Assembly (NCBI GenBank): GCA_030430535.1
Contig: JAUIKY010000001.1
Span: 62,001 to 126,000, forward strand
Direction of reading: 5' to 3'
DNA length: 64,000 nucleotides
Source of the DNA: Bacteroidia bacterium
GTDB taxonomy: Bacteria; Bacteroidota; Bacteroidia; Flavobacteriales; Flavobacteriaceae
Part shown: positions 1-50,627 of the stretch, piece by piece
Layout of the letters: each line of letters opens with the position of its first letter
Position numbering within the stretch: position 1 is the first letter of the stretch
Position numbers and translations under genes: made by a program
The notes under the pieces: generated by a model
Database searches by the model: none
Seen by the model: the letters and a program-made list of their open reading frames with translations, nothing else
What the model was told of the DNA's origin: nothing

Positions 1-846
1 CATGCCACCCACGTTAAACAAGCTTTATTACATGGCAAACATGTGGTTTGCACCAAACCTTTTATAGATGATTTGGCCGATGCCAAAGAATTGCTTGAAT
101 TGGGTAAAAAAACAGGAAAAAAGGTGTTTATTGGGCAAAGTTCCCGTTTTTCTGAGCCCATGGTGAGGCAAAAGAAGGATTTCGATAAGGGGTTAATAGG
201 AAACCTAATCACGGTCGAGGCTCATTATCATGCCGATAACCGCTGGTTTTTAAAGAAAGATTGGTCGCTGCTCAACTCCTTTAAATGGCTTTATGGCGGT
301 TTAAGCCACCCGGTTGATTTTGTGCGTTGGTATTTAAAAGATATTGAGGAGGTGATGGGTTATGGTATGATAAGCGAAAATGGATATTCGGCTGGACTTA
401 AAAATGAAGATGCCATGCACTTTATTTTTAAGGCTAAAAACGGACATATTGCTCGCGTTAGTGGGGTGTATTCTTCGCCAACACAACCCACAAAACGCGA
501 TAGTACGTTAACGTGCATTTTGCGCGGTACTTTAGGGGCTAGTCAAGGCGATTACCACGAGCTGCGCTATTCAATTACTTCAAAAGACGGCGAAGAAAAA
601 GTGGTGTATTGGGGCGATGAAAAACTTAAATATTATTACCGCTTTGAAGGGCAATCGCACCACGCCGGAGAATATCAAAACTACTTGGAATATTTTGCCG
701 ATAGCATAGAAAATAATTTCACCGCTTACCCCAACATGGAAGAAGGTATTGGTACAGTGGCTTTGTTGCAGGCAATGGACCGAAGTTTGCAAACCGGAAA
801 GCCAATAAAAATAGCTGAAATAAAAGCAGAGTACGGTATTGGTTGA
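1..846 (+). CDS. Gfo/Idh/MocA family oxidoreductase (5' truncated by window start)
   Basis: Frame 1 is open from base 1 (HATHVKQALLHGKHVVCTKPFIDD...). The 'GKHVVCTKP' motif (EKP/TKP active-site region) and C-terminal 'GIGTVALLQAMDRSLQTGKPIKI' are typical of the Gfo/Idh/MocA family. Confidence 0.88.
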   Translation, partial: HATHVKQALLHGKHVVCTKPFIDDLADAKELLELGKKTGKKVFIGQSSRFSEPMVRQKKDFDKGLIGNLITVEAHYHADNRWFLKKDWSLLNSFKWLYGGLSHPVDFVRWYLKDIEEVMGYGMISENGYSAGLKNEDAMHFIFKAKNGHIARVSGVYSSPTQPTKRDSTLTCILRGTLGASQGDYHELRYSITSKDGEEKVVYWGDEKLKYYYRFEGQSHHAGEYQNYLEYFADSIENNFTAYPNMEEGIGTVALLQAMDRSLQTGKPIKIAEIKAEYGIG

Positions 847-1082: not shown

Positions 1083-3581
1083 ATGAAGATTAATTATAGG
1101 TTTAGTCCAAAAATATATCTACTCTTTTTATTGACAGTTTGTTCTGTTGATGCTCAAGAAATATGGGTGAGCAACAAAGGTGCCGATGCCAATTTGGGAA
1201 CAAAGGAAAGTCCGTTGGCAACCGTTAATATGGCTTTAAGAAAAGTGCGTAACATGCGTAGGCTGAACGATCCCGCTGTAAAATCGGGAGTACGCATACT
1301 ATTAGCAGGCGGAACTTATAATCTTAACGAGCCTATTTTTATAAGACCTGAAGATTCTGGAACGGCCGAAAGTCCAACAACTATTGAAGCGGCCGATAAT
1401 GGAACGCCAATTTTGAGCGGAGGAGTTGAAATCAATAAATGGAAAAGAGCAGGAAAAATTAACGGCTTGAAATCTGGCGACGTTTGGGTTGCCGATGCAC
1501 CAAAAAAGGCAGGGGCCATTTTAGATTTTAGACAGCTTTGGGTGAACGGAAAAAAAGCTGTTAGGGCAAAAAGTACCTCTGGCGATAAAATGGAAAGAAT
1601 TTTGTCGTGGGACAAAGCCTCTGAAACTTGTTGGATTCCATTTAAAGACAAATCGGTTCAGTTCGAGCCAGGCATGGAGATGTTTATCCAGCAGTGGTGG
1701 GCCATTGCCAATCTCCGTATTAAAAAAATGGAAGTGAAGGGCGATAGTGCCAAGTTGTATTTCCATCAGCCCGAAAGCCGTATTCAAAGTGAGCACCCTT
1801 GGCCAGCGCCGTGGATTTCAGAAAAAACGGGAAATTCGGCCTTCTTTTTAAACAACGCTAAATCACTGTTAAACGAACCTGGTGAGTGGTATTTGGATAA
1901 GACAAACGCCAAAATTTATTACTACCCCAAAAAAGGGGAGCGTTTAAATTCATCCACTGTAATAGCTCCTGTTTTAGAAAACTTGGTTGAAATTAAAGGA
2001 ACGGTTGATTACCCAGTTAGCCATGTGTATTTTAAAGGTATTTCGTTTCAGTACAGCAATTGGTTGCGCCCATCTCAACAAGGGCACGTGCCCATTCAAG
2101 CGGGAATGTATCTCTTGGACGCCTATAAATTAAAGGAACCGGGAACACCCGATAAAGCCGGATTGGAAAATCAAGCATGGATTGGCAGGCCCCGTTCGGC
2201 TGTTGAAGTCAATTTTTCCAACCATATTAAGTTTCAAGAATGCTCGTTTCAGCATTTAGCGTCAACCGGGTTGGATTTGCATAAAGGCAATAGTAACAAT
2301 TTGGTTCAAGGCAACTTGTTCAAGGATATTGGCGGAAGTGCTATAAACGTGGGCGTGTTTTCAGATGAAGCCTTTGAAACGCATTTGCCATACAATCCAA
2401 AAGACGTGCGTGAGGTTTCAACCAACGAAACTATCGTAGATAATTTGATTACCGATGTGACTAACGAAGATTGGGGATGCGTAGGCATTAGCGCCGGTTT
2501 TGTAAAAAACATTACGATTGCGCACAACGAGATTTCAGAAGTATCTTATACTGGTATTGGTTTGGGCTGGGGCTGGACCAAAACCATCAATGCCATGTCG
2601 GGTAACAAAGTTATAGCCAATAACATTCATCACTACGGAAAACATTTGTACGATACCGCTGGTATTTACACGCTTTCTGCCCAACCGGGAAGTGTGATAA
2701 AGGAAAATGTAATTGATAGTATCTACTTCAATCCGTATGCCCACGATCCATACCATTGGTTTTATTTGTACACCGACGAAGGTTCGGCGTATTTTACGGT
2801 AAAAGATAATTGGGTGCCTGCTGAAAAGTTCCTTCAAAATGCAAACGGCCCCAACAATTTATGGACTAATAACAATGCTTTTGTTAGTGAAACTATTAAG
2901 GAAAATGCAGGAATCCGGAGTCCTTATAAATCATTGTTAAGTGAAGTTGTTGTAGATAAAAATTGGCCATTACAGGAAGTGCCACACTTTGCAGCGGTTG
3001 AATTGATTGGACAAGATTTCGATGCTACCAAAATCAAAAAAATAGCCAAAACCAATGGTGTGATTGACGCACAGTTATATCAATGGAAAAACCACACGGT
3101 ACTGTATGCCAAATTAAATCATATTGAGCATTTAAAAAATGAATTGGCTTTGGAATATCCTAATGCCACCATACAAACATACAACACACCGGTATATAAT
3201 TTTAACAAGTTTGAGCATTGCAAAGACAATCAGTTGGCTGATGAGTGGGAACATGTACTGCTTACCGCCAATTTAGTAGAAGACGAGAAACTTCAACAGG
3301 AATATTTGCAATATCACGACACCCAATTTGAAGAATGGCCAGAAGTAGCCCAAGGTTTCTGTAATGCCAATTTTCAACAGTTGCAAGTGTTTAAAAATGG
3401 GCGTCAGCTCATGTTGGTCATCAGTATTCCAAAGGGGTCGAGTTTAGACGAATTGAATCCTAAAACAAAAGAAAATAATCCGCGTGTAAACGATTGGAAC
3501 GATATAATGAAAAAATACCAAACAGGAATTGAAGGTACAAATCCAGATGAAACTTGGGTGTTTTTAGAGAAAATAGACTAA
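1083..3581 (+). CDS. Secreted right-handed parallel beta-helix glycosidase (GH141-like) with C-terminal L-rhamnose mutarotase (RhaM)-like domain
   Basis: N-terminal signal peptide (YLLFLLTVCSVDAQ). Beta-helix N-terminus 'WVSNKGADANLGTKESPLATVNMALRKVR...LLAGGTYNLNEPIFIRPEDSGTAESPTTI...PILSGGVEI' is typical of GH141-type proteins. The last ~111 aa match RhaM (EYLQYHDTQFEEWPEV..., NPRVNDWNDIMKKYQ, WVFLEKI). Confidence 0.78.
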   Translation: MKINYRFSPKIYLLFLLTVCSVDAQEIWVSNKGADANLGTKESPLATVNMALRKVRNMRRLNDPAVKSGVRILLAGGTYNLNEPIFIRPEDSGTAESPTTIEAADNGTPILSGGVEINKWKRAGKINGLKSGDVWVADAPKKAGAILDFRQLWVNGKKAVRAKSTSGDKMERILSWDKASETCWIPFKDKSVQFEPGMEMFIQQWWAIANLRIKKMEVKGDSAKLYFHQPESRIQSEHPWPAPWISEKTGNSAFFLNNAKSLLNEPGEWYLDKTNAKIYYYPKKGERLNSSTVIAPVLENLVEIKGTVDYPVSHVYFKGISFQYSNWLRPSQQGHVPIQAGMYLLDAYKLKEPGTPDKAGLENQAWIGRPRSAVEVNFSNHIKFQECSFQHLASTGLDLHKGNSNNLVQGNLFKDIGGSAINVGVFSDEAFETHLPYNPKDVREVSTNETIVDNLITDVTNEDWGCVGISAGFVKNITIAHNEISEVSYTGIGLGWGWTKTINAMSGNKVIANNIHHYGKHLYDTAGIYTLSAQPGSVIKENVIDSIYFNPYAHDPYHWFYLYTDEGSAYFTVKDNWVPAEKFLQNANGPNNLWTNNNAFVSETIKENAGIRSPYKSLLSEVVVDKNWPLQEVPHFAAVELIGQDFDATKIKKIAKTNGVIDAQLYQWKNHTVLYAKLNHIEHLKNELALEYPNATIQTYNTPVYNFNKFEHCKDNQLADEWEHVLLTANLVEDEKLQQEYLQYHDTQFEEWPEVAQGFCNANFQQLQVFKNGRQLMLVISIPKGSSLDELNPKTKENNPRVNDWNDIMKKYQTGIEGTNPDETWVFLEKID
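3246..3578 (+). other. RhaM (L-rhamnose mutarotase)-like domain at the C-terminus of the GH141-like protein
   Basis: Residues 722-832: 'WEHVLLTANLVEDEKLQQEYLQYHDTQFEEWPEV...NPRVNDWNDIMKKYQTGIEGTNPDETWVFLEKID'. Compare the E. coli RhaM motif EYxxxHxxIWPEL (remembered). Conserved Tyr, His and WPE are present. Confidence 0.8.
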
Positions 3582-3588
3582 ATAATTA

Positions 3589-5853
3589 ATGAAGCAGACT
3601 AACCATCAGTTTTTCGACTTTCTGGATTTTGATACCGACCTCACCAAAGAGGAAGGGGTTTCAAAACTTTGGAAAGCCTGTAAGCCCACCAATATAGGTG
3701 AATCTGGCTTGGGTGTGGTATTAACCGTGCCTTTCCAATGCCAATTGTTATCAAACGAAATAGCACCCGATAAAGCCATTCCGCAAAAAGACTTTTACCT
3801 TTTTGTGAGAGCTTTTGGCGATAAAATTTTAAGAGTAAGTATTGGTTTCGAAAAAGATATTGACGAAACTTCGCCAATGATTGATATGGCTGATGATATT
3901 CAAGAAATGAAATTGAATATCGAAAAGTCAGAATTAAAATGGACGGTAAAAGATGTGAACGGAATTACCCGTGCGTTTTTCGATTTGTCGGATCCTGAAA
4001 TTGACCATTGGAGCGATTTATTGCCATGCCCCGAGGAGTCTATGCAAGCCACATTTTTCCCCGATGGTAAAAAAGCGATAACGGTGAGTGCGTACGACCA
4101 GTTTTTTCCTGGCAGGATGGATGCGATGTGTTTGTCGTTTATCGAACAAAATGGTGCGCCGGGCAAGGCTTCCATTTCGTTCCATGCCAAGCCCGACGAA
4201 AAGTTTGTTGGCACGGGAGAACGCTTCAGCAAGATGGACTTATCAGGAAACACCTTCCAAATGAAAAACCAAGATGGGCAAGGGGTTAACAATAAACGTA
4301 CTTATAAAAACATTCCGTTTTACTTATCTAGTGAAATGTACGGTCTGTTTTTACACACATCAACCTATTGTAAGTTTTCAATGGCTGATTTTTCGACCCG
4401 ATCGGTACAATTGTTGGCAGAAGAACCCATTTTGGACCTCTTTTTAATAGGCGCTGATACTCCCGAAAAAATCATCCATCAATATAAAAAAATAACTGGT
4501 TTTCCAACGGTGCCACCACTGTGGAGTTATGGTGTTTGGATGAGTAGAATGACCTATTTTTCAGAAGAAGAAGTCAATACCATTTGCAACAGATTGAGGG
4601 ACGAAGATTATCCTTGTGACGTGATTCATTTGGATACTGGCTGGTTCAAAACCGATTGGTTGTGCGAATGGAAATTCAACGCAGAGCGTTTTCCAGACCC
4701 GAAGCGTTTTGTTTCAAATTTAAAGAAAAACGGTTACCGCGTTAGTTTGTGGCAAATGCCATATATATCGGAAGATGCCGAGCAATACGAAGAGGCAAAA
4801 GCTAATAATTATATAGGAAAGTTAAATGCTGAAGTAATGCGTGGCGGGTCCAATTTTAGTAACCTCGACTATGCCGGAAGTATTGATTTTACGTACCCTA
4901 AGGCGGTAGAATGGTATAAAAATTTGTTACGTGAACTTTTAGAAATGGGCGTAACCTGTATTAAAACAGATTTTGGTGAAGAAATCCATTTAGATGCCAG
5001 TTACCATAATATGTCGCCCGAAAAACTCAATAACCTTTACGCTTTATTATACCAAAAGGCAGCCTTTGAGGTAACTAAAGAAGTTACAGGTGATGGTGTT
5101 GTATGGGCCCGTGCCGGATGGAGCGGTTGCCAGCGTTACCCCATACATTGGGGCGGCGATGCAGCAGCCTCGTGGGATGGCATGGCGGGCTCGCTTAAAG
5201 GAGGCTTGCACTTAGGTTTGTCCGGGTTTGGGTTCTGGAGCCACGATGTACCTGGATTCCACGGTGTGCCCAATTTTATGAATTCGGTGATTCCGGACGA
5301 TTTATATGTGCGTTGGACGCAGTTTGGCGTGTTCACTTCCCATATCCGTTACCATGGTACATCAAAACGTGAGCCATATTATTACCCGAAAATTTCGAAC
5401 ATTGTCCGTAACTGGTGGAAGTTAAGGTATGCGCTGTTGCCGTACATTTTGCAGGAAAGTGAAAAAACCACTAATTCGGGGTTTCCGGTTATCAGAGCGT
5501 TGTTAATGCACCACCCCAACGATAAGATGGTTTGGCATATTGATGACCAATATTATTTTGGAGATGACTTTTTGGTAGCGCCAATGATGAATTCAGAAAA
5601 TAAGAGAGATGTTTACTTGCCCGAAGGTAATTGGGTTAACTTCTTCACCGGAGAAAAAAGTAAAGGAGGCCGTTGGCTGAATGATTTTGAATCACCCATG
5701 GAAAACATGCCAGTTTGGGTAGTTGAAGGTGCCAAGATTCCTTTGTATCCAGAGCATGTAAATTGTACCGACGATATGGATTTAAACAAAACAGTTAAAC
5801 TAAACATAGATGGTAATTTCAAAGGTATTTGGAGACATCTTGATTTCATATAA
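3589..5853 (+). CDS. GH31 family glycoside hydrolase, probable alpha-xylosidase; no obvious signal peptide
   Basis: 754 aa. 'PPLWSYGVWMSRMTYFSEEEV', nucleophile region 'CIKTDFGEEI', acid/base region 'HWGGDAAASWDGM', C-terminal 'DDQYYFGDDFLVAPMM'; all GH31 hallmarks. Confidence 0.9.
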   Translation: MKQTNHQFFDFLDFDTDLTKEEGVSKLWKACKPTNIGESGLGVVLTVPFQCQLLSNEIAPDKAIPQKDFYLFVRAFGDKILRVSIGFEKDIDETSPMIDMADDIQEMKLNIEKSELKWTVKDVNGITRAFFDLSDPEIDHWSDLLPCPEESMQATFFPDGKKAITVSAYDQFFPGRMDAMCLSFIEQNGAPGKASISFHAKPDEKFVGTGERFSKMDLSGNTFQMKNQDGQGVNNKRTYKNIPFYLSSEMYGLFLHTSTYCKFSMADFSTRSVQLLAEEPILDLFLIGADTPEKIIHQYKKITGFPTVPPLWSYGVWMSRMTYFSEEEVNTICNRLRDEDYPCDVIHLDTGWFKTDWLCEWKFNAERFPDPKRFVSNLKKNGYRVSLWQMPYISEDAEQYEEAKANNYIGKLNAEVMRGGSNFSNLDYAGSIDFTYPKAVEWYKNLLRELLEMGVTCIKTDFGEEIHLDASYHNMSPEKLNNLYALLYQKAAFEVTKEVTGDGVVWARAGWSGCQRYPIHWGGDAAASWDGMAGSLKGGLHLGLSGFGFWSHDVPGFHGVPNFMNSVIPDDLYVRWTQFGVFTSHIRYHGTSKREPYYYPKISNIVRNWWKLRYALLPYILQESEKTTNSGFPVIRALLMHHPNDKMVWHIDDQYYFGDDFLVAPMMNSENKRDVYLPEGNWVNFFTGEKSKGGRWLNDFESPMENMPVWVVEGAKIPLYPEHVNCTDDMDLNKTVKLNIDGNFKGIWRHLDFI

Positions 5854-6052: not shown

Positions 6053-6802
6053 ATGAGTGCAGTTATAACCGATGAGCAATTAGCCCAGTTTAAGGAAGAT
6101 GGGTTTTGCATTGTAAAAAACGTGATTCCGCAAGAACTTATCGAGCGTTTGCGTGACGAGTGCCAAAGATTCATAAAAGAGAAAGATGATGAAATGGATA
6201 GAAAAGGCGTTGAGGTTGACGAAATAAACCATAAAGGAAAACGCTATTTTATTGCCCTTCGTTATAAAGACAGCGAAACCATGCAAGACCTTATTTTTGG
6301 TAAGGAAATGGAAGAAATTACCCGAAAAATATTAGGAGAGGAAGTATATTTGTTTTTAGAGCAGTTTGTGGTTAAAGCGGCCGATAAAGGTATGACGTTT
6401 TCTTGGCACCAAGATTCAGGTTATTTAGATTTTGACCATAAGCCTTATTTATCGGTTTGGTGCCCATTAGACGATGTTACCGAAGAAAACGGAACAGTTT
6501 ATCTGTTGCCTTACAAAGATGCCGGAACGGAAAAGCGAATAGACCATGTTTTACAGGAAGGCACTAACGATAAAATAGGATACTTTGGAGACAACCCAGG
6601 AGTGCCGGCGGTTTTAAATGCTGGTGATGTGGCTTTGTTTTCAAGTACGTGTTTCCACCGCAGTGGATCGAACACCACAAATAAATCCAGACGTGTATTG
6701 TTGATTCAGTATTCGGCCGAGCCTATTTTAAAAAATGGAAATGAGCCACTTTATTGGGCCGAGCCTTTTCTAAAAAAGGGTGAAAAAATAAGTGCATACT
6801 AA
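6053..6802 (+). CDS. Phytanoyl-CoA dioxygenase (PhyH) family Fe(II)/2-oxoglutarate-dependent oxygenase
   Basis: 249 aa; HxD motif in 'FSWHQDSGYLDF', distal His in 'STCFHRSGSNTTNKSRRVL'; PhyH-type N-terminus 'QFKEDGFCIVKNVIPQELIERLRDE'. Confidence 0.87.
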   Translation: MSAVITDEQLAQFKEDGFCIVKNVIPQELIERLRDECQRFIKEKDDEMDRKGVEVDEINHKGKRYFIALRYKDSETMQDLIFGKEMEEITRKILGEEVYLFLEQFVVKAADKGMTFSWHQDSGYLDFDHKPYLSVWCPLDDVTEENGTVYLLPYKDAGTEKRIDHVLQEGTNDKIGYFGDNPGVPAVLNAGDVALFSSTCFHRSGSNTTNKSRRVLLIQYSAEPILKNGNEPLYWAEPFLKKGEKISAY

Positions 6803-6918: not shown

Positions 6919-8511
6919 ATGAACATTTACGACCAACTAAACTTTCTCGATTTTGCCGTAGTAGGCCTGTATTTAATCGTACTGGTGGGACTAGGGGCTT
7001 GGTTCAGTTTAAGAAACAAAAGAAGAGACGATGAAAACTATTTCTTGGCAGGAAACTCCCTGAGTTGGAAAAGTATTGGGTTTAACATGTGGGGTACCAA
7101 TGTGGGGCCGTCCATGTTAATTGCAAATGCCAGTATTGGCTATACAACAGGCATTGTAGCTGGAAACTTTTCGTGGTACGCTTTTATTTTTATCTTTTTA
7201 TTAGCGATAGTTTTTGCGCCAAGATATTTAGGAGCAAGGGTTCAAACCTTACCGGAATTTATGGGGAAGCGCTTCGGAAATTCTACCCAAAACATTTTGG
7301 CGTGGTACACTATAGTTACGGTACTATTGAGTTGGTTGTCGTTGACATTATTTGCGGGAGGTATTTTGATTCAGCAGATATTGAATTTACCCATGTGGCT
7401 GTCTGTAATAGTGCTGTTGCTTATTGCAGCATTTTTTACTTTGGCAGGAGGGTTGAAAACCATAGTTTACACCAACGTCATCCAAATGGTACTATTGATT
7501 ATTGTATCGTTTGTATTGATGTGGGTAGGTTTGGATAAAGTAGGCGGATTTGGCCAATTGGTAAGCGAAACGCCATCCAATTACTGGAATTTATTTTTAC
7601 CAGCCGATGATGCCAGTTACCCATGGATAGCCATTTTATTGGGTTATCCTGTTATGGGCGTTTGGTTTTGGTGTACAGATCAATCGATGGTACAATCGGT
7701 TTTGGGCGCCAAAAGTGTAAAAGAAGGTCAGTTGGGTGCGAACTTTACGGCTTGGTTGAAAATTATTGATGTGCCATTGTTTATCCTTCCGGGGATTATG
7801 TGCTTTGTATTGTTTCCAACGTTGGAAAATCCAGATGCCGCTTACATGACTATGGTTACCGAACTCTTTCCAACGGGAATGAAGGGCTTGGTTATGGCCG
7901 TTTTGATAGCGGCTCTAGTGAGTACTATCGATTCTTCATTAAACGCATTAAGCACTGTTTTTACAATGGATGTTTATGTGAAAAAATTTAATCCGAAGGC
8001 AAGTCAAAAACGCATTGTTAAAGTGGGACATATCGTAACGGTTGTTGGGGCTATTATTTCCATTTTTATCACCCTCGCCATCGATAGTATAAAAGGTTTA
8101 AATCTGTTTGATGTATTTCAATCGGTGTTAGGGTTTATTGCACCGCCTATGTCGGTGGTGTTTTTATTCGGTGTACTTTGGAAAAAAACCACGGCCAAAG
8201 CCGCCAATAGTATTTTGGTTTTCGGAACCTTGTTCAGCTTAACCGTTGGAATCCTTTACTTGTGGGTATTTCCGAACGACCCCGAAAGTGCCGTAAAAAT
8301 ATGGCCGCACTTTTTACTACTGTCGTTTTACATTTTTGTGATTTTATCTGTAGCCATTGTAGTGGTATCGCTGCTAGATAAAAGAAGTGAGTCATTTAAA
8401 AGCACCTTAGATTTTAGTGGATTGACCAAAGTGGCGCCAAAAGTGAAATTGTTGTGGGCAACACTATTTGTAACCATGATATGCTTGTACTTGTATTTTA
8501 ATGGAAATTAA
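6919..8511 (+). CDS. Sodium:solute symporter (SSS) family transporter
   Basis: 530 aa, multi-TM; 'DFAVVGLYLIVLVGLGAWFSLRNKRRDDENYFLAGNSLSWKSIGFNMWGTNVGPSMLI', 'AALVSTIDSSLNALSTVFTMD' typical of SSS/SGLT-type sugar transporters. Confidence 0.92.
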   Translation: MNIYDQLNFLDFAVVGLYLIVLVGLGAWFSLRNKRRDDENYFLAGNSLSWKSIGFNMWGTNVGPSMLIANASIGYTTGIVAGNFSWYAFIFIFLLAIVFAPRYLGARVQTLPEFMGKRFGNSTQNILAWYTIVTVLLSWLSLTLFAGGILIQQILNLPMWLSVIVLLLIAAFFTLAGGLKTIVYTNVIQMVLLIIVSFVLMWVGLDKVGGFGQLVSETPSNYWNLFLPADDASYPWIAILLGYPVMGVWFWCTDQSMVQSVLGAKSVKEGQLGANFTAWLKIIDVPLFILPGIMCFVLFPTLENPDAAYMTMVTELFPTGMKGLVMAVLIAALVSTIDSSLNALSTVFTMDVYVKKFNPKASQKRIVKVGHIVTVVGAIISIFITLAIDSIKGLNLFDVFQSVLGFIAPPMSVVFLFGVLWKKTTAKAANSILVFGTLFSLTVGILYLWVFPNDPESAVKIWPHFLLLSFYIFVILSVAIVVVSLLDKRSESFKSTLDFSGLTKVAPKVKLLWATLFVTMICLYLYFNGN

Positions 8512-8530: not shown

Positions 8531-9403
8531 ATGATAAAAAACACAAACGATGGTACTAATAATCCACCATCATTGCGTATCGATATAAACTACGGAACAT
8601 GCGAAGACTTACCAGCGTTTTCAACGGGGCCAAAAGGAAATGACCGTGAAAAGCATGAAGCCATTGCGAAGGCTGGTTTTAAAGGAATTCAAGATGGCGA
8701 CCCAAATCTATGTGAAGAATTCAATTTGGAATTAACGGCACACGCCCGTATCAACAAAGTAGGCGATTTGGATAACCTAATGCCCGTTTGGAAAAGTGGA
8801 AACTATAATTGTGCTTCCATCCATTTAGGTTGGGGCATGGAAAGTGATGCCGAAATGGATGCTTTGGTGCAATATGTGATGGAAACTTCAGAAAATTTCG
8901 ATTTTCCTATTTACATTGAAACCCATCGTGCCACGATAACGCAAGATTTGTTCAGAACGGTGGAATTGACCAAGCGTTTCCCCGAAGTGCGGTTCAATGG
9001 CGATTTTTCACATTGGTACACGGGGCAGGAAATGGTGTATGGTGGTATTGAAAACAAGTTGGAATTCATTCAACCCGTGTTCGATAGGGTGCGTTTTATG
9101 CACGGAAGAATCGGTAACCCGGGCTGCATCCAAGTGGATGTAAAGGATAAAAATGCAGATTACGTTCAGCATTTTAAGGAAATGTGGAAACGTTCGTTTT
9201 TAGGCTTTTTAAAATCGGCAGAACCGGGCGATTACATCTGTTTTACGGTAGAGCTGCTTAAAGCCGAAATATTTTATGAAAGAACCATCGTTTCAGATAA
9301 CGGTTCAGAAATTGAGGAAGGCGACCGTTGGCAACAAGCTTTGTTATACAAAGAAATTATTGAGGAGTGCTGGGAAGCAGCTCAAAAGGAAATAGGTAAA
9401 TAG
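8531..9403 (+). CDS. Xylose isomerase-like TIM barrel / sugar isomerase-epimerase family protein
   Basis: 290 aa. 'HEAIAKAGFKGIQDGDP', 'FPIYIETHRATITQDLFRTVELTKRFPEVRFNGDFSHWYTGQEM', 'FDRVRFMHGRIG'; Glu/Asp/His metal-ligand pattern of AP_endonuc_2-type barrels. Confidence 0.75.
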   Translation: MIKNTNDGTNNPPSLRIDINYGTCEDLPAFSTGPKGNDREKHEAIAKAGFKGIQDGDPNLCEEFNLELTAHARINKVGDLDNLMPVWKSGNYNCASIHLGWGMESDAEMDALVQYVMETSENFDFPIYIETHRATITQDLFRTVELTKRFPEVRFNGDFSHWYTGQEMVYGGIENKLEFIQPVFDRVRFMHGRIGNPGCIQVDVKDKNADYVQHFKEMWKRSFLGFLKSAEPGDYICFTVELLKAEIFYERTIVSDNGSEIEEGDRWQQALLYKEIIEECWEAAQKEIGK

Positions 9404-9467: not shown

Positions 9468-10841
9468 ATGGAACAAAAAAAAGGAAGTTTAAAAAGTACG
9501 ATAACGGTATCGCTTACTAATTATTTAGATGCAGGCGCGATTGTAGCTGGGGCAAGTGGATTAACGCTTTGGCAAAATTATCTTGGACTTACAGAAGGGC
9601 ATCTTGGTTGGCTAAATGCCATTAGTGCCAACGCTTTTGGAGCTGCCATAGGTGCGATTATTGGCGGTTTTCTTGCCGATAAATATGGGAGAAAAAAGAT
9701 TTATACCTACAACATGTTGGTATACATGTTGGGCGTGGCCATTATCATATTCACTGTAAACTTCCCGATGTTGTTGTCAGGGTTTTTAATTACCGGAATA
9801 TCCGTAGGGATTGGTGTTCCGGCGTCATGGACCTATATTTCCGAAAATTCCGAGGTTAGAAATCGCGGCCGTAACATGGGTATTTCGCAATTTGCATGGG
9901 GTGTAGGGCCAACCATCATTTTAATTTTAGGCATGTTGCTCGCTCCGGGTATAGATGATGCTTCAGCGGGTGTTTTATTCAAATATGTAAAAGATATTGC
10001 TGCATTGTTCATAGGAAGTGATGCGAGTATTGAGGCTGTTAACGTATTCAGTAGCCGCCTTATTTTTGGTTCGTTGTTCATTGTAGCTTTTATAGCTTGG
10101 AACCTTCAGCGTAAGCTCGAAGAATCTAAAGAATGGTTAGAGGCCAAAGAAAAGCAAAAGCAAAGCAAAGAAAAAGTGCCCAGTGTTTTTGCGTCTTTTG
10201 GAACACTGCTCACCAACAAAGTAAATATTAGAACCATGCTTTTTTTAGCAGGAATTTATGTCACTTGGAATATGGTGGCTTCCGTAATGGGCTTTTTTCA
10301 ACAACACATTTATGAAACGGCAGGTGGACTTTCCAATGAAGATGCCAATATGGTATCGGCCATTCAATGGCTCATCATTATTGCAGTGACGTATTTTGGT
10401 TTTTCAATGCTTATCGATAAAGTCAATCAACGTATGTTATATTTTATCGGTACGGGAATAGGGATTGTAGCATGGGGCATCCTTATTTTTATAGGTATCA
10501 AAAATTACATTGCTTTGTGGGCCTTTACTATTTTGTGGGGCGTACATGCAGGAATAAGCGTTCAGGCTTTTTATGCTCTGTGGGCTTCAGAACTGTTCCC
10601 AGCCAAATACCGTGCTGCAGCTCAAGGAATCATGTTTTTTGCGGTTAGGGCTATAGCCGCCATCTGGGGATTTGGCTTTGTCTTCATTTATGGGGAACAC
10701 GGCGAAGGGTTCCACACAGCAGCTTATGTTATGATTGGCTTGCTCATTGTGGCTTTAATAATAGGAACGATTTGGACGCCAAAAACACAAGGAAAAACAT
10801 TAGAGCAAATTACAGAAGAACGTTACGGAGACGATATTTAA
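9468..10841 (+). CDS. MFS sugar transporter
   Basis: 457 aa, ~12 TM; 'GGFLADKYGRKKIYTYNMLVYMLG', 'WASELFPAKYRAAAQGIMFF' typical of the sugar porter group. Confidence 0.9.
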   Translation: MEQKKGSLKSTITVSLTNYLDAGAIVAGASGLTLWQNYLGLTEGHLGWLNAISANAFGAAIGAIIGGFLADKYGRKKIYTYNMLVYMLGVAIIIFTVNFPMLLSGFLITGISVGIGVPASWTYISENSEVRNRGRNMGISQFAWGVGPTIILILGMLLAPGIDDASAGVLFKYVKDIAALFIGSDASIEAVNVFSSRLIFGSLFIVAFIAWNLQRKLEESKEWLEAKEKQKQSKEKVPSVFASFGTLLTNKVNIRTMLFLAGIYVTWNMVASVMGFFQQHIYETAGGLSNEDANMVSAIQWLIIIAVTYFGFSMLIDKVNQRMLYFIGTGIGIVAWGILIFIGIKNYIALWAFTILWGVHAGISVQAFYALWASELFPAKYRAAAQGIMFFAVRAIAAIWGFGFVFIYGEHGEGFHTAAYVMIGLLIVALIIGTIWTPKTQGKTLEQITEERYGDDI

Positions 10842-47462: not shown

Positions 47463-50400
47463 TTGAATTTAGTAGCAGTAAAAAATAACGTTCGTCGAGT
47501 AGCCGATAAATTTTTTTTGTCGGGTTTAGCATTTTTTTTGTTCGTTTTAAGCGGCGTTTCACAAACTAATTATCCAGATATTAAGAAAAATAAGCACGGA
47601 AAAATTGAGCGTGTTGCCGACAATTTAGGAAACCTCATCCCTGATTTTTCTTATGCCGGATATAAGGCTTCAGAAAAAGCCATTCCCAATGTGGAGGCCA
47701 AAATATTTGTGCCAAAACAAGATGGGGATGCTACCGAAACCATACAAAAAGCTATAGACTATGTCGGTCAACTTAAGCCCGATAAAAACGGATTTAGGGG
47801 GGCTGTTCTTTTGGATAAAGGGACTTTCGAAATCAACGGAACGCTTTACCTAGAAAATTCGGGTGTGGTGCTTCGAGGAAGCGGAAACGCTGAAAACGAA
47901 ACACTTATTTTAGGAACGGGAATAAAGCGTGAAGCGATAATTCGTGTTTTAGGAAAAAACGACATAACATACTCTGATACTTTGGCATTACGAGATGAAT
48001 ATGTTCCATTAGGTACGAAAACTCTTTATTTGGAAAGTGCCGCACAGTTACAGGTTTCCGATGAAATTATCATCAAAAAACCATTAACAAAAAAATGGTT
48101 GGAAACTCTAAATACTGAATATTTTGGTGGGGAAAGTGGTTGGATTGGTTGGAAAACCCGTGATTGGGACATTCGAGCCAATCGTGTTGTTTCCAATATT
48201 GAAGGCAATACTATTACTTTGAACGCCCCGTTGACGTTTGTGTCCGACGATTACAGCCAAATTGAAGTTATAAAATATAGTTGGGAAGGCAGAATCAATC
48301 AGGTCGGCATCGAAAATTTAAGTATTCAATCTACTTTTGATGCTGCAAATGAGAAAGACGAACAGCACCGCTGGTTTGGTATTACCATGCAAAATGTTAA
48401 GGATGCTTGGGTGCGCCAAATTAACTTTAAACATCTGGCTGGCGGAGCAGTTTCACTTCTAAAAACTGCTCAACAAATTACGGTTGAAGATTGTATTTCA
48501 ACAGAGCCCGTTTCAGAAATTGCTGCACACCGAAGACAAACCTTTTATACTGAAGGTCAACAAACCTTATTTCAGCGCTGTTATTCCGAATTTGGGTATA
48601 ACGATTTTACCATAGGAGGTTACGGTACTGCTGGACCCAATGCGTTTGTTCAATGCGAATCTTATTCATCCTATAACAGTAGTGGGGCCATAGGAAGTTG
48701 GGCAACGGGTGTGTTGTTTGATGTGGCTTATATTGATGGAGCCAGCATCAATTACAACAATAGAGAACAAGCTGGAAGAGGTGCAGGATGGACCGCAGCG
48801 AATAGCGTTATTTGGGAGTCATCGGCTTCAAAAATTGCGTGCTATAATCCGCCAACAGCTCAAAATTGGGCGTTCGGCGTTTGGGGAGGTATCATGACGG
48901 GTAATGGCCATTGGAAAGATGTAAATAACCACATCACACCAAGGAGTTTGTTTTATGCGCTTTTGGAAAACCGATTGGAAAAATTACCATTTAATCCATT
49001 TGTGTACGATATGGGATCCGAGCCAACCTCTAGCCCAACGGTTGAGCAAGCCCAGCAATTAACACAGGAGGCGATGGCACCTAAAACAACCACAAAAGAT
49101 TGGATTCATGAGGTTTCAAAAGAAAATAAAATTCCTGTTGATGTAAAAAAAATAAAATCCATTCACGAATTAAAAGATAAATCATTCCGCGGAAGCGAAA
49201 GCAAAAAACAATCGAAAGTTGAAATCACAAACGGTTGGTTAACCTTTAACGGAAAAGTGATAACAGGTAAAAAAGCCCCGGTTATGTGGTGGCGTGGCAG
49301 TTTGCGCGATCACGATGTAAACCGTGCTTCGGCTCACGTTACACGATTTGTTCCCGGAAAAACAGGGAAGGGATATACCGATAATTTAAATGAAGTAGTA
49401 GCAGAATTTAAGGAAAATAATGTAGCGGCTTTAGACCATAATTATGGTTTATGGTACGAGCGCAGAATGGACGACCACGAGCGTGTTAGAAGAATTGATG
49501 CCGATGTTTGGGCGCCATTTTACGAACAGCCTTTTGCACGAACAGGAACCGATTTGGCATGGGACCATTTAAGCAAATACGACTTGACAAAACCCAACCA
49601 ATGGTATTGGCAACGCTTGGGAGCATTTGCCGATTTGGCCGAAAAAGAAGGTCAACTACTCATCCAACAGCAGTATTTTCAGCATAATATTTTAGAGGCC
49701 GGAGCACATTGGTCGAGTTCGCCTTGGCGCTCGGCAAATAATGTAAACGCTACCGATTTCCCCGAACCAGTTCCGTATGCGGGTGACAAGCGTATTTTTA
49801 TGGCCGAACAGTTTTACGATGTTACCCATCAGCATAGAAGAAAATTGCACCAACAATTCATAAGGCTGTCCTTAGAAAATTTTAAAAACAACAGTAATGT
49901 TGTTCATTTCACCAGTGAAGAATACACCGGACCACTTCATTTTATGGAATTTTGGCTGGATGAAGTTAAAAAGTATAAAGACGAAACTTCAGCAAATGGC
50001 ATTATTGGTTTAGGAGCAACAAAAGACGTGCAAGATGCTATTTTGAATGATAATAAAAGAGAAGCTGTTGTTGATTTGATTGATATCAAGTACTGGCATT
50101 ACAGGGAAGACGGGTCGGTTTACGCTCCTGAGGGCGGAAAAAACTTAGCGCCAAGGCAGCATGCCCGTAAAATGGAAACAGGTAAAGAAACCGAAGAACA
50201 GATTTATCGTGCCGTTCGGGAATACCGTCAAAAATTTCCAGAAAAAGTTGTATTTTATTCTACCCATGCGGCGCCACGCTTTGGTTGGTCTATTTTAATG
50301 GCGGGAGGGTCTTTGGCTAATATTCCGGAAATTGATATTTCTGGATTTTACGAGGCCTTAACTTCCATGGAAATGGATAAAAACGAAACCCACAAAAGTG

Positions 50401-50627
50401 CGCGTTGGACTTTAAAAAACGATGGTAATTCATATTTGATTTACCTAAAGAACACTGATGCTGTTACCCTGGATTTATCAAACTACAACGGTAAGTTTGA
50501 CGCTTACTGGATAAAACCAAGCGATGGAAAAGTAATAACGACGGACACCCTAAGCGGAAAATCTAAACACACGCTTTCGAGCCCAAATGGTAACAAAGCG
50601 ATTCTATTTATACAAAAGAAAAATTAA
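47463..50627 (+). CDS. DUF4955/DUF6298-like protein: pectate-lyase-superfamily beta-helix N-terminus plus a second C-terminal domain
   Basis: 1054 aa; TTG start; signal peptide; 'DGDATETIQKAIDYVGQLKPDKNGFRGAVLLDKGTFEINGTLYLENSGVVLRGSG' beta-helix; C-terminal half 'WLTFNGKVITGKKAPVMWWRGSLRDHDVNRASAHVTRFVPGKTG...' contains TIM-barrel-like catalytic-looking segments (FTSEEYTG, WSSSPWRSANN). Confidence 0.68.
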   Translation: MNLVAVKNNVRRVADKFFLSGLAFFLFVLSGVSQTNYPDIKKNKHGKIERVADNLGNLIPDFSYAGYKASEKAIPNVEAKIFVPKQDGDATETIQKAIDYVGQLKPDKNGFRGAVLLDKGTFEINGTLYLENSGVVLRGSGNAENETLILGTGIKREAIIRVLGKNDITYSDTLALRDEYVPLGTKTLYLESAAQLQVSDEIIIKKPLTKKWLETLNTEYFGGESGWIGWKTRDWDIRANRVVSNIEGNTITLNAPLTFVSDDYSQIEVIKYSWEGRINQVGIENLSIQSTFDAANEKDEQHRWFGITMQNVKDAWVRQINFKHLAGGAVSLLKTAQQITVEDCISTEPVSEIAAHRRQTFYTEGQQTLFQRCYSEFGYNDFTIGGYGTAGPNAFVQCESYSSYNSSGAIGSWATGVLFDVAYIDGASINYNNREQAGRGAGWTAANSVIWESSASKIACYNPPTAQNWAFGVWGGIMTGNGHWKDVNNHITPRSLFYALLENRLEKLPFNPFVYDMGSEPTSSPTVEQAQQLTQEAMAPKTTTKDWIHEVSKENKIPVDVKKIKSIHELKDKSFRGSESKKQSKVEITNGWLTFNGKVITGKKAPVMWWRGSLRDHDVNRASAHVTRFVPGKTGKGYTDNLNEVVAEFKENNVAALDHNYGLWYERRMDDHERVRRIDADVWAPFYEQPFARTGTDLAWDHLSKYDLTKPNQWYWQRLGAFADLAEKEGQLLIQQQYFQHNILEAGAHWSSSPWRSANNVNATDFPEPVPYAGDKRIFMAEQFYDVTHQHRRKLHQQFIRLSLENFKNNSNVVHFTSEEYTGPLHFMEFWLDEVKKYKDETSANGIIGLGATKDVQDAILNDNKREAVVDLIDIKYWHYREDGSVYAPEGGKNLAPRQHARKMETGKETEEQIYRAVREYRQKFPEKVVFYSTHAAPRFGWSILMAGGSLANIPEIDISGFYEALTSMEMDKNETHKSARWTLKNDGNSYLIYLKNTDAVTLDLSNYNGKFDAYWIKPSDGKVITTDTLSGKSKHTLSSPNGNKAILFIQKKN

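Follow-up and report, generated by a model that had tools for sequence, protein, structure and literature searches.

A GH141 glycosidase joined to a two-lobed RhaM-family module is common across Bacteroidota and carries predicted export signals

Why should a glycoside hydrolase that begins with a signal peptide end in a domain from a family of sugar mutarotases? The question is raised by a gene in the window (the whole 64,000-nucleotide stretch of Flavobacteriaceae DNA that was analysed), in which a first, sequence-only reading had seen a GH141-like beta-helix enzyme fused to an L-rhamnose mutarotase (RhaM) in one uninterrupted 832-residue frame. The frame is indeed intact, running on the forward strand from an ATG at position 1083 to a stop codon that ends at position 3581, and both halves belong to the families proposed, as judged from their Pfam scores and from the match to BT_1002. 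The N-terminal part is a GH141 member by sequence match and by its catalytic Asp pair (Table 1): residues 23–618 align end to end (2e-209) with BT_1002 (PDB: 5mqp), the founder of GH141 and an alpha-L-fucosidase acting on chain A of RG-II, and counterparts of its catalytic residues D523 and D564 (PMC10154630) are kept, once an offset of 5 between the 5mqp chain index and the published BT1002 numbering is allowed for. A hydrophobic N terminus is also present in relatives of the fusion protein. The likeness to BT_1002 extends to the surroundings, where the gene set of the window (GH106, GH127, GH140-like, GH28, BT_1020-like, GH78, GH95, and L-fucose isomerase [FucI]) is RG-II-type, and on the basis of this genomic context the predicted target of the GH141 domain is the fucosyl bond of RG-II chain A. 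Unlike the window fusion, however, BT_1002 ends at residue 624, without a mutarotase module. A 1054-residue protein with a DUF6298 match (775 bits; window positions 47463–50627) also lies inside the pectin cluster, and in the f11 genomes GH141-like domains that are ∼42% identical occur in frames of 1233–1782 residues, fused to other regions (L215, L216, and L217).

Table 1. Coordinates in the window of the parts of the fusion protein and of the neighboring genes
Feature	Position	Strand	Basis or remark
Gfo/Idh/MocA oxidoreductase, 3' part, without signal peptide	1..846	+	PF01408
Sec signal peptide (MKINYRF...SVDAQ), residues 1-25	1083..1157	+	read from sequence
GH141 beta-helix glycosidase, residues 25-618	1155..2936	+	BT_1002 match, PF21231
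GH141 insertion domain, residues 132-283	1476..1931	+	PF21231 (GH141_M), 237.9 bits, 5.6e-71
Asp524, counterpart of BT1002 D523, putative nucleophile	2652..2654	+	alignment with BT_1002; invariant in aligned relatives
Asp565, counterpart of BT1002 D564, acid/base	2775..2777	+	alignment with BT_1002; invariant in aligned relatives
Lobe 1, divergent ferredoxin-like fold without Tyr/His/Trp set, residues 634-708	2982..3206	+	structure prediction
Lobe 2, PF05336 mutarotase-family domain, residues 722-832	3246..3578	+	Pfam, structure prediction, Foldseek
Candidate active-site residues Tyr741, His745, Trp752	3303..3338	+	conservation, 36 diverse members
GH31 without signal peptide	3589..5853	+	5f7c (an alpha-glucosidase by annotation) and YicI are the closest solved structures
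PhyH-family Fe/2OG dioxygenase	6053..6802	+	PF05721
Sodium:solute symporter (SSS)	6919..8511	+	PF00474; conserved neighbor
290-residue protein, TIM-barrel-like by eye, no Pfam match	8531..9403	+	conserved in a subset of loci
MFS sugar transporter	9468..10841	+	PF07690, PF00083

The appended part had been taken for a domain of ∼111 residues. It is in fact a module of ∼210 residues (620–832) with two lobes, which we call RHAM2, and the two lobes in the structure prediction rule out a single 111-residue domain. PF05336 (rhaM) matches residues 735–831 (3.1e-11; 43.8 bits against a cut-off of 23.4) and is found in 38 of 38 aligned relatives (E ≤ 0.1). AlphaFold, run on residues 621–832 with a 38-sequence alignment, predicts two ferredoxin-like lobes (mean pLDDT 87.9, pTM 0.84), and Foldseek places the predicted model in the dimeric alpha/beta barrel class, with several tandem proteins among the matches; the L-fucose mutarotase 7byu, at rank 27, gives a TM-score of 0.77 (target-normalized; rmsd 3.1 over 112 columns, E 5e-3), superposing on one lobe. 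Profile searches of the PDB with the module alone gave no match, whereas Pfam and Foldseek did. The two lobes of RHAM2 are likely to form a pseudo-dimer. Mean column conservation is 0.44 in lobe 1 versus 0.78 in lobe 2, and among 36 divergent RHAM2 sequences Tyr741, His745, Pro753, Trp805, and Trp825 are fully conserved and Trp752 is conserved in 97%; in one member (L191) FPG replaces WPE. The motifs quoted earlier, including the Tyr/His/WPE pattern of E. coli RhaM, are there; between His745 and WPE, RHAM2 has a 3-residue insertion that is absent from that enzyme. By HMM score, fold, and the Tyr/His/Trp set, RHAM2 is a member of the RhaM family, with a mutarotase activity that is putative. It shares PF05336 and the Tyr...His...Trp-Pro signature with the L-fucose mutarotase (FucM) of Acidovorax avenae (7byu/7byw) and with E. 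coli RhaM (1x8d), but these are stand-alone proteins of ∼105–120 residues with no second lobe, and RHAM2 differs from both in its predicted export, its two lobes, the 3-residue insertion, two conserved Cys residues, and its clade. The latter residues, Cys713 and Cys760, are at least 95% conserved in RHAM2 and absent from the cytosolic single-domain proteins that were looked at, and a disulfide between them would be in keeping with export.

Two findings had been named as fatal to the proposed fusion: the lack of a PF05336 match or of the fold, both of which are there, and an assembly error. A scan of named GTDB genomes disposes of the second: among 228 relatives found, the best 80 were inspected, and all 80 of these loci, on independent contigs, carry the whole fusion in a frame of ∼840 residues, while a congener has a module 82% identical to that of the window. 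We found no point that speaks for an assembly or annotation artefact and regard one as next to impossible. The fused proteins among the best 80 come mostly from Flavobacterium and also from Tamlana, Aestuariibaculum, Wenyingzhuangia, Mariniflexile, Pelobium, and Paludibacter. In an even sample of the phylum (399 genomes), a long fused frame is present in 15 of the 17 GH141 carriers, and PF05336 frames longer than 350 residues are fusions only. In a second family (f4), 15 members are fused and 8 are not, and no GH141-RHAM2 fusion was seen in the loci examined of the Bacteroidales-type family f11. The architecture is thus common across Bacteroidota. Each of the domains was known before, and public genomes contain the fused proteins; the literature searched held only incidental co-mentions of GH141 and mutarotases and no description of the pairing, which is not proof of absence.

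In a tree of the RhaM family, built from few columns with long branches such that finer placement is uncertain, fused and separate RHAM2 modules fall together in a clade, single-lobe lipoprotein RhaMs join it at 100/99, and a 98/95 branch divides all of these from A. avenae FucM and RhaM sensu stricto. RHAM2 does not group with the RhaM proteins of E. coli, Rhizobium, or 6hhn in this short alignment; it sits on its own long branch on the Bacteroidota FucM-like side, which also holds the single-domain proteins of fucose-type operons, A. avenae FucM being on the RhaM side. The specific label of L-rhamnose mutarotase given by the sequence-only reading is therefore not supported by the tree position. 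An AU test rejects a single clade for the GH141 cores of the fused proteins (p = 1.5e-8) and with it a single fusion event, which suggests that fusion or domain shuffling apparently happened at least twice. The GH141 domain of Paludibacter nests among unfused Bacteroidales proteins, whereas its module clusters with flavobacterial modules, identities to the window being 51–53% for GH141 and 63–65% for the module; members of f4 show the reverse. A separate copy of the module (L183) nests inside the fused clade, implying that fission or loss also occurs. The pairing of glycosidase and putative mutarotase thus has apparently at least two origins and is also found split into two proteins, both with predicted export signals.

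RHAM2 is predicted to work outside the cytoplasm, on the strength of export signals in both fused and separate copies. In eight loci that were checked, the module is encoded by a gene of its own, and every copy carries a signal peptide or a lipobox; this rules out that the module is merely carried along by the signal peptide of GH141 and strengthens the extracytoplasmic location proposed from the sequence. Separate copies lie directly before Gfo/Idh/MocA in the same cluster in the f9 genomes and one f4 genome and outside the GH141 cluster in genomes G1031 and G857, and one (L231; G1031) is part of an operon-like run with Gfo/Idh/MocA and an SSS symporter. Single-lobe RhaM proteins with lipoprotein-type signals are encoded directly after an SSS gene and near enolase-like and aldo/keto-reductase-like genes at L045:7689-8138, L046:7564-8013, L233:5076-5531, and L234:5836-6276; in L233 the start of the RhaM gene overlaps the end of the SSS reading frame. 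They share the putatively exported clade and the SSS neighbor with RHAM2 but are single-lobed and unfused, with other catabolic neighbors, and would make up another type of cassette with an exported RhaM. Altogether, these RhaM-family proteins look like a clade that works outside the cytoplasm. Two-lobed RhaM proteins also occur alone, at 211–232 residues and with no signal peptide, in FucP/dehydrogenase-type operons (L039, L040, L043, and L044), and these are apparently cytosolic double mutarotases. In genome G062, the signal peptide region of the fusion is out of frame beside a T run (L037:6900-7050), perhaps because translation starts elsewhere or because of an error in sequencing.

A location outside the cytoplasm had been called unusual for a mutarotase, yet periplasmic ones are known, such as the sialic acid mutarotase NanM, which is co-transcribed with the transporter SiaPQM (PMC4646407). 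The logic would be alike, in that an extracytoplasmic mutarotase provides a co-encoded transporter with the anomer that it imports, RHAM2 being likened to NanM by export signals and linkage rather than by family. The sugar is another one, no glycosidase fusion is involved in the NanM case, and the folds of NanM and RHAM2 differ.

Such linkage is seen for RHAM2. A gene for Gfo/Idh/MocA adjoins nearly all fused loci (the full gene beside the window fusion is L047:11780-12847), and Gfo/Idh/MocA together with a nearby SSS or MFS transporter is found in 108 of 112 loci with RHAM2 versus 5 of 23 without it (Fisher 2e-14, a p value that is too small given that the genomes are related). Of the four exceptions, three fall short by no more than a Gfo/Idh/MocA match in the stretch examined; in the remaining one (L090) the contig is short and stops too early for a transporter to show. 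The unfused Bacteroidales-type loci that were checked, unlike the fused ones, have no Gfo/Idh/MocA neighbor and mostly no SSS. In five loci the module is missing although GH141, Gfo/Idh/MocA, and SSS are all there; RHAM2 is therefore dispensable, and a strict dependence of these neighbors on it is rejected.

In the mechanism that we infer, and to which we give a probability of about one half, an exported GH141 enzyme and a tethered, FucM-like mutarotase of the RhaM family would, by analogy with NanM, set the anomer of a reducing-end fucose for the SSS symporter. Outside the cytoplasm, the GH141 domain would cleave side chain A of RG-II at its alpha-L-fucosyl bond and release a sugar with L-fucose at its reducing end, most likely 2-O-methyl-Xyl-a1,3-Fuc. 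RHAM2, acting as a FucM-like rather than L-rhamnose-specific enzyme in which lobe 1 may take the place of the partner subunit in the homodimers that RhaM proteins usually form, would interconvert the anomers of this reducing end; the co-encoded symporter would thereby obtain the anomer that it imports, and cytosolic Gfo/Idh/MocA and, in some loci, GH31 would process the imported sugar. Against this reading stand the five loci that lack the module and the FPG of L191; a RhaM-type pocket may not accept a 3-O-substituted fucose, the 3-residue insertion between His and Trp could alter or end the activity of RHAM2, and spontaneous mutarotation might suffice. The clade and the pairing make a concrete case, open to test, for a role of extracytoplasmic anomer exchange in the uptake of glycans by Bacteroidota.

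The earlier assumption that a free 6-deoxy-L-sugar is released is probably wrong, as BT1002 frees the disaccharide 2-O-Me-Xyl-a1,3-Fuc and not free fucose (PMC10154630 and PMC7939467). BT1002 is the only characterized close relative, and its product counts against the idea, put forward in the sequence-only reading, that RHAM2 is an exported mutarotase for free periplasmic L-fucose (or L-rhamnose), merely co-localized by its tether with fucose release. The fold match to 7byu, the presence of L-fucose isomerase and GH95 in the window, and the modules that are separate from GH141 all fit this idea, but in several loci it is GH31, not genes of fucose catabolism, that recurs with SSS, and we consider the idea unlikely. 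The insertion close to the active site, the divergence of lobe 1, and the frequency of binding modules on glycosidases could also mean that RHAM2 is catalytically dead and serves as a fucose-recognizing carbohydrate-binding module or substrate holder. Near-invariance of the Tyr/His/Trp set argues otherwise, as do the separate copy with an export signal in L231, which adjoins a transporter and not a glycosidase, and its kin encoded directly after SSS genes, making a pure binding role improbable. RhaM-fold proteins dimerize, and the two lobes could make an internal pseudo-dimer, but a role in dimerization or stability only is very improbable in view of the concentration of conservation, active-site residues included, in lobe 2, the ability of BT1002 to work without the module, and the occurrence of the module as a separate gene with its own export signal.

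If the released sugar is the disaccharide, the neighbors of the fusion offer a candidate route for its use, as a lead and not a result. GH31 is the immediate neighbor of GH141 in the window and in eight flavobacterial-type loci (L034–L037, L053, L055, L057, and L065), usually with SSS, and beside an unfused Bacteroidales GH141 paralog in seven of eight loci (L218, L235–L239, and L241), again usually with SSS; PhyH is next to GH31 in the flavobacterial loci, and the Bacteroidales GH31 proteins are 61–66% identical. It is conceivable, though we hold it rather doubtful, that the fusion frees 2-O-Me-Xyl-a1,3-Fuc and flips its reducing-end fucose, that SSS imports the disaccharide, and that the cytosolic YicI-like GH31 cleaves it; PhyH might remove the methyl group. 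B. thetaiotaomicron cuts every linkage of RG-II except one (PMC12282258). Were this route real, the locus would supply an enzyme for the linkage that B. thetaiotaomicron reportedly leaves uncut, and the linked SSS and GH31 genes would be candidates for the use of the residual 2-O-Me-Xyl-Fuc of RG-II. Since BT1002 leaves 2-O-Me-Xyl-a1,3-Fuc, the uncut bond would be the one inside the disaccharide, where the 2017 work of Ndeh et al. reportedly helps to place it. We dropped the explanation that this bond stays uncut through the lack of a GH31 in B. thetaiotaomicron, as 5f7c, the closest solved relative of the window GH31, is presumably a protein of that species. In genome G690, the GH31 gene is split into two frames (L218:6557-8807), and its homologues in the same genus are intact.
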